The notes below the pieces were generated by a model. It searched no databases, was not told where the DNA came from, and worked only from the letters and a program-made list of their open reading frames with translations. Positions 11,379 to 14,908 of a stretch of 64,000 nucleotides of DNA are shown here, in pieces. The stretch comes from Microbulbifer flavimaris. Its GTDB lineage: Bacteria; Pseudomonadota; Gammaproteobacteria; Pseudomonadales; Cellvibrionaceae. The first letter of the stretch is position 1, and every line of letters begins with the position of its first letter. Where the stretch lies: assembly GCF_001641755.2 (NCBI RefSeq), contig NZ_LRFG02000002.1, forward strand, positions 868,001 to 932,000, in the 5' to 3' direction. Position numbers and translations under genes: made by a program.

Positions 11379-11468
11379 CTACTGCGCGCCGGAGAAGAAG
11401 TAATGCTGGATCAACTGCAATACCAGCAGGGTCATCACCAACAGAAAAATGATATTGCCCCGATTCAC
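11379..11468 (-). CDS. Possible 29-residue membrane mini-protein
   Basis: A GTG-started frame of 30 codons whose GTG overlaps the TGA stop of the upstream epimerase gene, with AAGGAG placed 8 nt before it inside the last epimerase codons. The predicted product is almost one transmembrane helix (IIFLLVMTLLVLQLI at about residues 6-20) with an Asn-Arg start and a short polar end. The stop-start overlap and strong ribosome-binding site argue for translational coupling. No similarity is recognised. Chance is possible because the frame is short. Confidence 0.5.
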   Translation of the reverse strand: MNRGNIIFLLVMTLLVLQLIQHYFFSGAQ

Positions 11469-12484
11469 GCCGATATCTCCTTCGCCACTTCCTTCTGATT
11501 GCCCTGGAGCAAGCCCTGCCCAATCAACCAGTCGCGACTCTCGCGCAGCATACGCTCCAGCGGAACATCACCGCGGTACCCGAGCTCTCGTCGTGCCTTG
11601 TCGCAGTTGGCCGTCACTCGCCGCGTAATCAGGGCGGCCTTTTCCGGTGTGATTCTCGGCTCTTTGCCGGTAACACGTGAAAACAGGTCGGATAGCTGTC
11701 CCACCAAGTGAATGACCGCCGCCGGGGTCGTACGCTCGGGAACCGGCTTGCCCAGTAATCGGGCGATCTCGCTGAAAAACTCCAGGAAACTGGCATCGAT
11801 TCCGGCGAGGATATAGTTCTCCCCGCTGCGGCCCTTCTCGTAGGCAGCGATATGTGCCTTCGCCACCTCGGCCGCATGGCAGAAGGAACCATTGCCCGGC
11901 GGCACTCCGGGCAACTGATCGTCCTGGATCAGAAAAAACGTCTGGGCCCAGCTACTGGTATCGTATTTGCCGACAATCGCACAGGGGTTCAGGAAAACCG
12001 CATCCAGCCCTCTCTCGATCTCCTTGCGGACCGCCAACTCTGCGCGCTTCTTGGTATAGAGATAACCGTAGCGGGGATCATCGGCCAGCTGCGGGCTCTG
12101 CTCATCGATGGGGCGCTTCTGGTAGCCGTAGGCAGAGATAGAGCTGGTCACCACCATCCGCCCGACCTTCTTTTCCCGAGCAACGCGAGCGAGATTGGCC
12201 GAACCCTCGACATTGTCCCGCCACTGCTGCTCGCGTCCTCCCCGCCACATGCTGGTATTGGCAGCCACATGGAATACCGCATCGATGCCCTCCGGCACCG
12301 CACGGTGCAGGGAATCCATGTCATTCAGGCTTCCCGGCACCAGCTCCGCACCCAGTGATTCCGCAAGCCGGGTGTCCGAGCCCTGCCGGTGCATGGCGGT
12401 CACACGCCAGCCCTCTGAGAGCAGCTGCTCGATCAGGTTGGCACCGAGGAAACCGGTACCGCCGGTGATAAACGCATGTTTCAT
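11465..12484 (-). CDS. NAD(P)-dependent epimerase/dehydratase (extended SDR)
   Basis: A 339-residue extended short-chain dehydrogenase of the dihydroflavonol reductase/3-beta-HSD-like branch. The Rossmann dinucleotide loop GGTGFLG lies at residues 7-13, followed by an Arg in MHRQGSD that would suit NADP. The catalytic Ser cluster TSSISAYG and a Tyr-X3-Lys (YLYTK) are present. The substrate cannot be read from sequence; the family acts on sugars, sterols and small aldehydes. The ATG at 12484 puts the cofactor loop at the N-terminus as normal; an upstream frame to 12583 would run through a hairpin element and is rejected. It heads a likely operon with the 29-residue ORF and tag. Confidence 0.9.
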   Translation of the reverse strand: MKHAFITGGTGFLGANLIEQLLSEGWRVTAMHRQGSDTRLAESLGAELVPGSLNDMDSLHRAVPEGIDAVFHVAANTSMWRGGREQQWRDNVEGSANLARVAREKKVGRMVVTSSISAYGYQKRPIDEQSPQLADDPRYGYLYTKKRAELAVRKEIERGLDAVFLNPCAIVGKYDTSSWAQTFFLIQDDQLPGVPPGNGSFCHAAEVAKAHIAAYEKGRSGENYILAGIDASFLEFFSEIARLLGKPVPERTTPAAVIHLVGQLSDLFSRVTGKEPRITPEKAALITRRVTANCDKARRELGYRGDVPLERMLRESRDWLIGQGLLQGNQKEVAKEISA

Positions 12485-12532
12485 TGGCTTTGAGCTCTTA
12501 TTGACCTTACTTGTACTAGCTAAGCTCGGGGC

Positions 12533-12604
12533 GGGAAGGCCAGAAACCTTCTTGAGAAAAAGCCTGATCGGCAAATATTTCACAAAAAGGTTTCTGGCCG
12601 TCCC
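12533..12604. repeat. Hairpin element 1 with shared 24-nt loop
   Basis: Two 24-nt arms (12533-12556 and 12581-12604) pair in 21 of 24 positions, with a 13-bp uninterrupted core ggccagaaacctt/aaggtttctggcc. They flank a 24-nt loop (12557-12580) that includes gcctgatcggcaaatattt. The same loop in reverse complement, with its closing G-C pair, recurs in element 2 at 12715-12738, although the stems are unrelated. The element lies upstream of the epimerase start, in the leader of that leftward gene. Not a REP or terminator pattern that I know. Confidence 0.85.
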
Positions 12605-12691
12605 TCACACCTATAGCCTTGCCCCCTGAATAGACATCCTGAGTTTGCGAACCAAGCTACCATTCATTGGAATCTCGCGATACTGATTCAT

Positions 12692-12761
12692 AAAAGCGCG
12701 GGTGACCTCCCGGGAAATATTTGCCGATCAGGCTTTTTCCCGGGAGGTCACCTGCGCTTTT
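12692..12761. repeat. Hairpin element 2 with shared 24-nt loop
   Basis: Two 23-nt arms (12692-12714 and 12739-12761) pair in 22 of 23 positions, with an aaaagcgc/gcgctttt base and a ggtgacctcccggg core. The loop at 12715-12738 is the exact reverse complement of the loop of element 1. With the A-run and T-run at the base it could work as a bidirectional intrinsic terminator, in particular for the leftward peptidase gene ending at 12797. The rest of the 12485-12796 gap shows no further gene. Confidence 0.85.
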
Positions 12762-12796
12762 CCACTAGATTTGCTGGCCGCAACACCGTGGATGTA

Positions 12797-14908
12797 TCAA
12801 TCGACTTTCATACCCAGCTGATCCGCCAGGAATACATACTGGTTGGTAAAGTCTTCCACCTGCATCCACACCGGCTTGCCGGCACCATGGCCCGCTCGGG
12901 TTTCCACGGCCAGGTAAATCGGATTCTCACAGCCCTGATCCCGCTGCAGCGCGGCAGCAAATTTGTAGCTGTGCCAGGGTACCACGCGATCATCGCGGTC
13001 GGCGGTGGTGATCAGCGTGGCGGGATAACATTTGCCTTTTTCCGTGTTGTGAACGGGTGAGTAGGCATGGAGCGCTTCAAACTCCTCCCTGTTTTCACTC
13101 AGGCCGTAGTCGCTGGACCACTGGCGCGCATTGGCGGACGCCGTGTGGTAACGCAGCATATCCAGCACCCCCACAATAGGCAGCGCCACGGCGAACAGAT
13201 CCGGGCGCTGGACCATGGTTGCCCCGACCAGCAGACCACCGTTGGAACGGCCCATGATGGCCAGCTTGTCTTTCGAAGTTACTTTTTCATCGATCAGCCA
13301 TTCGGCCGCGGCGATAAAGTCATCGAAGACATTTTGCTTCAGGGTCTTGGTGCCGGCCTTGTGCCAGTCAGCACCGTACTCACTGCCACCGCGCAGATTC
13401 ACCATGGCCAGGGTGCCGCCCATATCCAGCCAGCCGGCGAAGCGGGTATAGAACTGCGGCAGCTGTGCCGCATTGAAACCGCCATAGCCGTATAGCAGCG
13501 TCGGGTTAGTGCCGTCGCGCTTCATATCCTTGCGATGCACAAGGAACATGGGGACACGGGTGCCGTCCTTGCTCTCAAAGAAATGCTGGCTGACGGTGAG
13601 CTCGGAGAAGTCCGCCGGGTAGTCCGGGGTTTTTACTTTCTCGCTTTTACCCGTTTTGACGTCCAGTTTGTAAATCGCGGGCGGAGTGAGGAAATTGCTG
13701 AAGGCATAGTAGGTTTCGGGATCGTCGGGCTCCCCGTAGAAGCCCTCTGCGGTGCCCATGCCCGGCAGCTTCAGTTCATACTGTTGTTTGCCATCCAGGT
13801 CGGTGACCACCACCTTGGACCTGGCATCCTCCAGGTAGTGGAGCACCAGGCGCTCACCGACCAGACTGGCTGACTGCAAGGCATTTTTTTGCTCGGCAAC
13901 CAGCTCATTCCAGTCTTCTCGTTGGGGTTTGTCCAGATCAATGGCGATCACGCGGCCGTTGGGAGCGTCTGCATTGGTCTCGAAGAAGAAAGTCTTGCCG
14001 CTATTGCCCAGATAACTATAGAGCGCGTCCCAGTCATCGAGCAGCTTCACGACCTTGCCATCTTTTTTCCGCAGATCGCGGTAGTAGATGGCGTTACTGT
14101 CGTAACCATCGAAAATGGTAAAGACCAGGTAGTTACCGTCGTGGCTCAACTGCCCGTCTGGGTTACGGGTGGGATGGTCGGTGATTTCATAGACTAGCTT
14201 GTCATCACTCTGCGGCTGCCCCAGCTTGTGGAAATATACGGCCACCTGCTTACTGTCGTCGGCAGAGCCATCCGCATTGAATGGATAGCGGCTGTAATAA
14301 AAGCCTGACTCGTCCTTGGCCCAGCTGACGCCGCTGAATTTGATGCCGGTCAGCACATCCTCGAGATCACTGCCGCTTTTCAGATCCCGCACGTGGTAGT
14401 CGGTCCAGTCGGTGCCGCCATCCGAGGTGCCGTAAGCCAGGTAACGGCCTTTGGGGCTCACCGCGTAACGCTTGGCGGCAATGGTGCCGTCCTCACTCAG
14501 TTTGCGCGGATCGAGGATCGTGTCCGCCTCGCCTTTACCCAGGTTATCGGTGCGGTAGAAGACACTCTGGTCCCAGGTACCGTCGTTGTACTCGTAGAAC
14601 ACCTTTCCGGCCTTCTTGTAAGGCACGCCGTACTGTTCGTACTGCCAGAGCTCAGTAAGGCGATCGTTGATTTTCTGCCAACCGGGCAGCTGCTTCAGCG
14701 CCGGCAGAGAGAAATCGTTCTGGGCGGCCACCCACTTATCCACTGCGTCGGACTCGAGGTCTTCGAGCCAGCGGTAGGGGTCGCTCACCTTGGTGTTGAA
14801 GTAGTTGTCGACCTGCTCGACGGTTTTTGTCTCGGGGTAGTCGCCTGCGGCGAACGCCAACCCACAGGTCAGCGCGCCCGCAGCCAGCGCCATCAGCTGT
14901 TTTTTCAT
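12797..14908 (-). CDS. Secreted prolyl oligopeptidase (S9A)
   Basis: A 703-residue serine peptidase of family S9A, which cuts short peptides after proline. A signal peptide (residues 1-21, ending Ala-Phe-Ala-Ala) indicates periplasmic location. The N-terminal YPETKTVEQVDNYF and SDPYRWLED segments and the seven-bladed propeller (about 80-430) precede the alpha/beta-hydrolase domain. Catalytic residues are visible: Ser in GRSNGG (about 554), Asp in DRDDRVVP (about 638) and His in RAGHGAG (about 671). Length matches the family. The start has GGAA about 8 nt upstream. Element 2 follows its stop and may be its terminator. Confidence 0.96.
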   Translation of the reverse strand: MKKQLMALAAGALTCGLAFAAGDYPETKTVEQVDNYFNTKVSDPYRWLEDLESDAVDKWVAAQNDFSLPALKQLPGWQKINDRLTELWQYEQYGVPYKKAGKVFYEYNDGTWDQSVFYRTDNLGKGEADTILDPRKLSEDGTIAAKRYAVSPKGRYLAYGTSDGGTDWTDYHVRDLKSGSDLEDVLTGIKFSGVSWAKDESGFYYSRYPFNADGSADDSKQVAVYFHKLGQPQSDDKLVYEITDHPTRNPDGQLSHDGNYLVFTIFDGYDSNAIYYRDLRKKDGKVVKLLDDWDALYSYLGNSGKTFFFETNADAPNGRVIAIDLDKPQREDWNELVAEQKNALQSASLVGERLVLHYLEDARSKVVVTDLDGKQQYELKLPGMGTAEGFYGEPDDPETYYAFSNFLTPPAIYKLDVKTGKSEKVKTPDYPADFSELTVSQHFFESKDGTRVPMFLVHRKDMKRDGTNPTLLYGYGGFNAAQLPQFYTRFAGWLDMGGTLAMVNLRGGSEYGADWHKAGTKTLKQNVFDDFIAAAEWLIDEKVTSKDKLAIMGRSNGGLLVGATMVQRPDLFAVALPIVGVLDMLRYHTASANARQWSSDYGLSENREEFEALHAYSPVHNTEKGKCYPATLITTADRDDRVVPWHSYKFAAALQRDQGCENPIYLAVETRAGHGAGKPVWMQVEDFTNQYVFLADQLGMKVD

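Follow-up and report, generated by a model that had tools for sequence, protein, structure and literature searches.

Two hairpins sharing one tip in a Microbulbifer flavimaris spacer are copies of an interspersed palindromic element that keeps its fold and tip while its stem sequence diverges

How do two neighbouring hairpins come to share an identical loop on stems that look unrelated? The question is raised by a 312-nt spacer (positions 12485-12796) in the 64,000-nt stretch of the Microbulbifer flavimaris genome analysed here, referred to as the window, which carries both hairpins between two leftward genes: a prolyl oligopeptidase-family gene upstream of the pair (12797-14908, minus strand; Pfam PF02897 at 3.3e-120 and PF00326 at 2e-56) and an NAD-dependent epimerase/dehydratase-family gene downstream of it (11465-12484, minus strand; PF01370 at 3.4e-33). 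The start of the latter was placed at the ATG where homology begins, its orthologues aligning from residue 1-4, and the longer open reading frame that runs into the nearer hairpin, copy A, was not used. A repeat search recovered the shared 26-nt exact inverted pair (12556-12581 and 12714-12739) that the first-pass annotation had reported, together with its near-perfect arms (12533-12559/12578-12604, 27 nt, 89% complementary; 12692-12717/12736-12761, 26 nt, 96%), and these are the sole hairpins listed in the window at a threshold of at least 16 exact pairs and a loop of at most 90 nt. The 24-mer tip, with up to three mismatches allowed, occurs at only these two places in the window; the mean for 100 dinucleotide-shuffled sequences was 0.00. 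Folded as RNA, the leftward strand of 12510-12790 reaches -131.6 kcal/mol versus -86.6 +/- 5.2 in 200 shuffles (z -8.7, none as low), and the opposite strand folded as DNA gives a z of -8.8.

Alignment with copies found elsewhere shows that both window hairpins are opposite-orientation copies of one 76-nt interspersed palindromic element, which consists of a 26-bp stem and a 24-nt structured tip. Copy A occupies 12531-12606 on the plus strand (stem 12531-12556/12581-12606) and bears the tip AAAAA-GCC-TGATC-GGC-AAATATTT at 12557-12580; copy B occupies 12689-12764 on the minus strand (stem 12689-12714/12739-12764) and bears the identical tip on that strand at 12715-12738, the exact reverse complement of the first. 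They score 70.7 and 81.9 bits, respectively, against a covariance model built on 46 copies, both window copies being among its training rows. The 24-nt "loop" has an architecture of its own, a 3-bp stem and a TGATC pentaloop in the window copies, and across the family the apex is closed by three pairs (GCC/GGC, ACC/GGT or, in a few copies, AAC/GTT), which co-vary among copies; the loop above them has five bases, usually TGATC or TCATC, and the 3' side bears an A-rich bulge. The earlier proposal that the tip and not the stem is the conserved part held well: over 99 distinct copies, the tip has an information content of 1.56 bits per position and the stem arms 0.84. Pairing in the stem is nevertheless maintained, with two-sided changes at 28 of 34 pairs in the 46 copies and 310 double-change cells where shuffling gives 85.1 +/- 8.1 and none of 500 shuffles reaches that number; in this respect the stem is comparable to the helix of a structural RNA, its sequence free to change and its pairing constrained, while the tip persists. 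Stem pairs 3, 14 and 25, spaced 11 bp apart, are conserved G-C pairs in an otherwise free stem, a pattern as if one helix face were contacted.

The dimensions of the element bear directly on one of the explanations first offered for the shared loop, namely that palindromes or terminators already in place took up a short element in their loops. In 45 apex-aligned copies, pairing is 71-98% at each of positions 1-26 and falls to 16% at the 27th, and this single stem length, together with the existence of a stem consensus, tells against a collection of pre-existing palindromes, as do the absence of any empty-loop palindrome among the loci scanned and the behaviour of orthologous copies, the stems of which diverge in place while the tip stays. 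We regard loop insertion as a scarcely credible origin, even though the family is modular, one outer stem consensus being found with tips of 24, 45, 52-53 and 66 nt, which implies that tips and stems have been recombined. A second class, whose 52-53-nt tip combines ACGCCGTGAATACATCCCTGTAGGCT with an inner palindrome while the stem is of the kind already described, is exemplified in the M. flavimaris genome itself by locus L222 (1507-1615 and 1701-1808; contig C5 near 229732), where two such hairpins have different stems and tips in opposite orientation, like the window pair; it recurs at loci L154 (8944-9051), L311, L312 and L330, and in another genus at L217.

Descent of the pair could be followed in the epimerase spacer itself, since 45 of the 48 genomes have the epimerase gene and a hairpin scan covered the region upstream of it in every one of them. 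Both hairpins stand at matching positions in five species, namely M. flavimaris and the four represented by genomes G034, G027, G012 and G023; a decayed remnant is found in G035, the spacers of G022 and G033 carry a GTAGGAGCGGCC-type palindrome instead, and the other 37 contain no hairpin with this tip. Ordinary REP-like palindromes of the GTAGGAGCGGCC or GTGGGAGCCTGC types were seen at these two spacers (L236 and L238) and also near a Y1 transposase match (L400, 1708-1785 and 2255-2316; L407, 4417-4492). In pairwise comparisons among the five species, 6-32 of 52 stem positions differ for copy A and 4-28 for copy B, the orthologous tips differ at 0-3 of 24, and the stems remain mostly paired, with double-change cells that keep a standard pair numbering 29 versus 8.6 in shuffles for copy A and 25 versus 8.5 for copy B. 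Paired changes at orthologous sites mean that the stems descended by compensated substitution, and the two stems, which had been called unrelated, must instead be seen as diverged and compensated descendants. At orthologous places, it is the fold and the tip that are kept, and not the stem sequence.

Such covariation could stem from hairpin-templated mutation, and the copies could then be functionless relics of old mobile palindromes, their arms kept complementary by quasi-palindrome correction and their tips constant through shortness of time or through renewal. We consider this doubtful and place it second among the rivals. It accords with the absence of the intact pair from 40 of the 45 genomes with the epimerase gene, where the pair is therefore dispensable, with the mobility of some copies (those of G033 that differ at 1-2 of 76 positions, and a miniature inverted-repeat element with an empty site, both described below), and with the compensatory changes that the part of PMC3116915 on REPIN hairpins reports for those repeats. 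Templated mutation, however, cannot explain why an unpaired tip stays the same at orthologous sites whose stems have come to differ at as many as 31-32 of 52 positions. In G035, moreover, whose epimerase is 86% identical, both hairpins have decayed and were not corrected, the fold being largely lost and part of the core remaining; pairing is thus not kept automatically, which counts against automatic palindrome correction, and the remnant looks like a lapse of constraint.

The family is widespread in Microbulbifer, a genus of marine bacteria. With up to three mismatches, the tip has three matches in the M. flavimaris genome and is found in 10 of 58 genomes including that one, all of one genus, although the match in G006, at three mismatches, is probably due to chance; the tip is therefore not confined to the epimerase-peptidase spacer, in keeping with the earlier reading. 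An 18-nt core of the tip gave 85 matches in 84 stretches, 19 of them in Microbulbifer contigs. The flanking bases are paired at 16-20 of 20 positions in 18 of these 19, the exception (L088) scoring 8 owing to a tip shorter by one base; the remaining 66 matches, with 1-12 of 20 flanking positions paired, were rejected as family members and attributed to chance. At E <= 0.01, the covariance model matches 34 of 48 Microbulbifer genomes, its match counts often counting one hairpin twice, once per strand; the nine matches in the M. flavimaris genome thus amount to six places, of which one has another tip. When 145 genomes of the order were scanned more coarsely, matches came up in the M. flavimaris genome and one other only, that single outside match (L217) having a different tip, but the scan considered 31 candidates per genome under strict filters and missed G059, which the genus scan had matched, and it does not prove absence outside the genus. 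An origin from phages or plasmids was considered and set aside, as no viral contig carries the type A tip pattern and the copy within a miniature element at L358 found no match among plasmids or phages. Our search of the open-licence literature on Microbulbifer repeats and on palindromic repeats with conserved loops or replication orientation found no description of the element.

If fold and tip are under constraint, the next question is whether they act as RNA or as DNA, and here the genomic context of the copies is informative. According to a simple open reading frame caller based on length and GC3-GC2, and not on annotation, the genes flanking a copy are in tandem for 69 of 103 copies, convergent for 26 and divergent for three, while three copies lie inside a called frame and two are unassigned. 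Copies are for the most part situated downstream of genes, at a median of 68 nt from the closest upstream stop codon. This location near 3' ends fits an RNA role, in which the hairpins would be structures in the 3' region of the upstream gene (terminators, stabilisers or a protein-bound RNA tip) and the covariation would reflect RNA folding. The scarcity of copies between divergent genes and the very stable RNA fold of the window pair point the same way, as does the leftward transcript of copy B, which ends in GCGCTTTTA after the stem; leftward copy B ends in TTTT and copy A does not. A terminator scan of 12400-12900 found none, but it allowed loops of 3-8 nt, too short for these hairpins. A tip read in RNA should, on the other hand, prefer one strand, and in tandem contexts, opposite pairs included, 41 tips are antisense to the genes and 28 are sense. 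Rfam offered no family at gathering score in six loci, that of the window pair included, and only weak microRNA and sRNA models; the element resembles Rfam structured RNAs in showing covariation of the kind used to define such families and differs from them in the lack of a gathering-score match. We hold an RNA role near 3' ends to be improbable, while acknowledging it as the main rival.

A second objection to the RNA role comes from replication. A dnaA gene was placed in each of seven genomes; orientation relative to the fork was scored in three, on the assumption that the terminus lies half-way from dnaA. In G027, 26 places remain after collapsing, and the tip strand runs with the fork at 22 of them (Fisher p 0.0014, computed over 27 places), in both gene directions, at 7 of 8 co-directional and 9 of 9 head-on tandem contexts; on the largest contig of G023 (C8), 13 of 14 single places among the matches listed run with the fork (p 0.0018); in G033, the figure is 13 of 24 (Fisher p 1.0). 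The lists of places for G027 and G033 were made by hand, with arrays and same-strand neighbours counted once, and exclude G027's opposite pair as well as matches at least about 100 nt long, which have other tips; the counts of 26 and 24 also omit two weaker matches, 2795075 in G027 (against the fork, and included in the Fisher test) and 2021711 in G033. The earlier suggestion of a site read on a folded single strand consequently remains the leading idea, with orientation following replication in two genomes, and the absence of the bias in G033 is a point against it. G033 has dispersed copies only 1-2 of 76 positions apart, which have moved recently, and the recent arrivals there are without bias. 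A fork bias can also arise without single-strand recognition, and one study reportedly deals with the beta clamp and transposon orientation. Tandem arrays with units of about 124-171 bp, one strand per array, were observed at L324 (G033 C1, 831517-832407), L298 (G027 C1, 1792906-1793607) and L278 (G027 C1, 3009663-3010427).

The opposite orientation of the window pair invites yet another explanation, also among those first proposed, that the complementary tips of such a pair kiss within one transcript or DNA strand. Opposite pairs do recur, at least 11 being listed, and in two pairs of the M. flavimaris genome, that of the window and one downstream of a glmU-like gene, the tips are exactly complementary. 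Many copies are single, however, and in 7 of the 11 pairs the tips differ at 1-3 positions. The likeness of tips within pairs is high when all tips are re-dealt (95 of 20,000 deals as low in differences) and unexceptional when they are re-dealt within genome groups (6733 of 20,000), and as a general role kissing is very unlikely. Concerted evolution of the two tips of a pair, which the M. flavimaris genome had suggested, failed on the same comparison within genome groups and was dropped. The pair beside the glmU-like gene, so named from our own reading of the sequence, is another old pair in opposite orientation, placed at the gene's 3' end and present at L162 (M. flavimaris C3, 504916-505130), L155 (G021) and L164 (G035); both of its tips have AAC/GTT in M. 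flavimaris and one of two in G021 and G035.

The mobility of some copies can be traced to a carrier. In the clade of G022 and G033, some copies have spread recently inside a miniature inverted-repeat element (MITE) of about 167 bp, the ends of which resemble those of a resident IS66-family element. The common sequence of the recent G033 copies extends beyond the hairpin, and the site occupied at locus L325 of G033 is empty in G022, where query positions 1-976 and 1144-2101 match adjoining DNA and overlap by 8 bases, leaving an insert bounded by GTAACT at its start and AGTTAC at its end. Loci of G033 and G022 yielded six elements that have this tip and both ends, four of 166-168 bp, one of 181 bp and one of 300 bp that holds a second hairpin, with terminal inverted repeats of about 14 bp (GTAACTACTC.CCC). 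Two of the six, at a site common to G033 and G022, are flanked on both sides by the duplication CATTTAAC; of the others, two have duplications matching at 7 of 8 bases, one has 7 bases and one has none evident. The complete IS66-family element of G033 occurs twice, each copy being 2381 bp long, with the 8-bp duplications CAGAAGAC and ACCCAGCC, and its ends match that of the MITE at 10 and 8 of 14 positions. At L319 (G033 near 3026896), the heptamer CCCGAGT is repeated many times beside the hairpin, with fewer units in other MITE copies.

Was the MITE, then, the source of the whole family? PF03050 had no match in 7 of the 12 genomes searched, including M. flavimaris, G027, G023 and G012, the last three of which have many copies nonetheless (the IS66 and Y1 genes discussed here are predictions from Pfam matches). 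Of the 57 type B copies, 4 reached a combined end score of at least 20, as did none of the 46 type A copies and 1 of 412 control windows, the type B figure understating MITE-borne copies because the pattern that collected these 103 copies misses some tip variants (L323 and L327). In this end-score scan, the window pair and most copies have no such ends, and the MITE is not supported as the origin of the whole family, the ends around most copies not exceeding the control; it looks like a late carrier. The view that a simple MITE is not enough to explain the pair thus stands for most copies, including those of the window, and gives way for the copies in two species that do ride one.

A Y1 transposase of the RAYT kind was examined as a direct partner and is not supported, although there may have been a past or distant partnership. 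Of 48 genomes, 45 contain a PF01797 match; the covariance model matched nothing at E <= 1 in 30 loci surrounding such genes, 20 further Y1 loci scanned with the hairpin script only gave no hairpin with this tip, and G000, G021 and G035 have copies and no PF01797 match.

These results make the element look like a new, oddly built relative of known bacterial palindromic repeats. It resembles REPs, BIMEs and REPINs in consisting of intergenic palindromes interspersed singly, in opposite pairs and in tandem arrays, and differs from RAYT-mobilised REPs in the absence of copies beside Y1 genes at the 30 loci. Integron attC sites offer a parallel of another kind, being bulged hairpins recognised as folded single strands with a strand preference. 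The subterminal hairpins of IS200/IS605 elements are likewise described as recognised on a folded single strand with a strand preference in the section of PMC6006769 that treats them, which for the REP group invokes a single-strand enzyme and the lagging strand. The Microbulbifer element would share the bulged hairpin and the strand preference with both, but no integrase, cassette or IS body is tied to the hairpin. REP hairpins are shorter than this one and are tagged by GTAG, GTGG or CGTC in the relevant passages of PMC3733652, PMC3116915 and PMC6006769, and Table 1 of PMC3733652 gives stems of 5-13 bp and loops of 2-20 bp for GTAG REPs and 8-9 bp and 4-5 bp for CGTC REPs; a 26-bp stem with a 24-nt folded tip lies outside the sizes in that table, and the constant part is the tagged end in REPs and the tip in the Microbulbifer element. 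GTAG does occur about 2 nt before the stem in some copies (e.g., L148, L149, L150, L152, L170 and L180), but not in those of the window. The G033 and G022 elements resemble IS66-type MITEs in their terminal inverted repeats of about 14 bp and their 8-bp duplications, the length listed for IS66 members in the part of PMC3281130 concerned with them, but most copies lack such ends, and the MITE carries the hairpin and does not define it.

Taken together, a REP/MITE-like interspersed hairpin read as DNA is the best reading. Specifically, we propose, with a probability of roughly 0.5, that this is a genus-wide palindromic element working as DNA, in which the tip at the end of the hairpin is a protein recognition site and some old copies are under selection. 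A tip that is kept, a stem that is paired and free in sequence, the occurrence of both transcript orientations, an orientation with the fork in two of three genomes and a fixed length jointly suggest recognition on a folded DNA strand. With the tip strand running with the fork, the tip motif would come to lie on the lagging-strand template and probably fold there, displayed at the end of a long hairpin or cruciform as a putative recognition site; the candidate reader might be a mobilising enzyme or a host chromosome-maintenance protein, our search for a binding protein or enzyme for the element having found none. Some old copies, the window pair for example, may have been kept by selection long after their arrival. 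A bolder form of this DNA reading, which we advance tentatively and think more probably wrong than right, holds that the copies are chromosome-wide, fork-oriented single-strand hairpin sites with a protein-read 24-nt tip, in which selection keeps tip and fold, the stem turns over and tips are exchanged as modules.

The finding has consequences for how such elements are sought and studied. It is by the sequence of the stem or foot that palindromic repeats are usually recognised, and, because the stem sequence is free here and the tip lasting, a sequence search based on the stem misses old copies. The orthologous copies in the epimerase spacer amount to a natural experiment on selection for DNA hairpins in spacers, five species keeping the fold and one close relative having lost it. 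The replication orientation, if it held in more genomes, would make the folding of lagging-strand DNA in the cell testable, and the bolder form of the DNA reading, if true, would mean that Microbulbifer possesses a replication-coupled DNA-structure signal of a new kind, domesticated from or shared with mobile elements.
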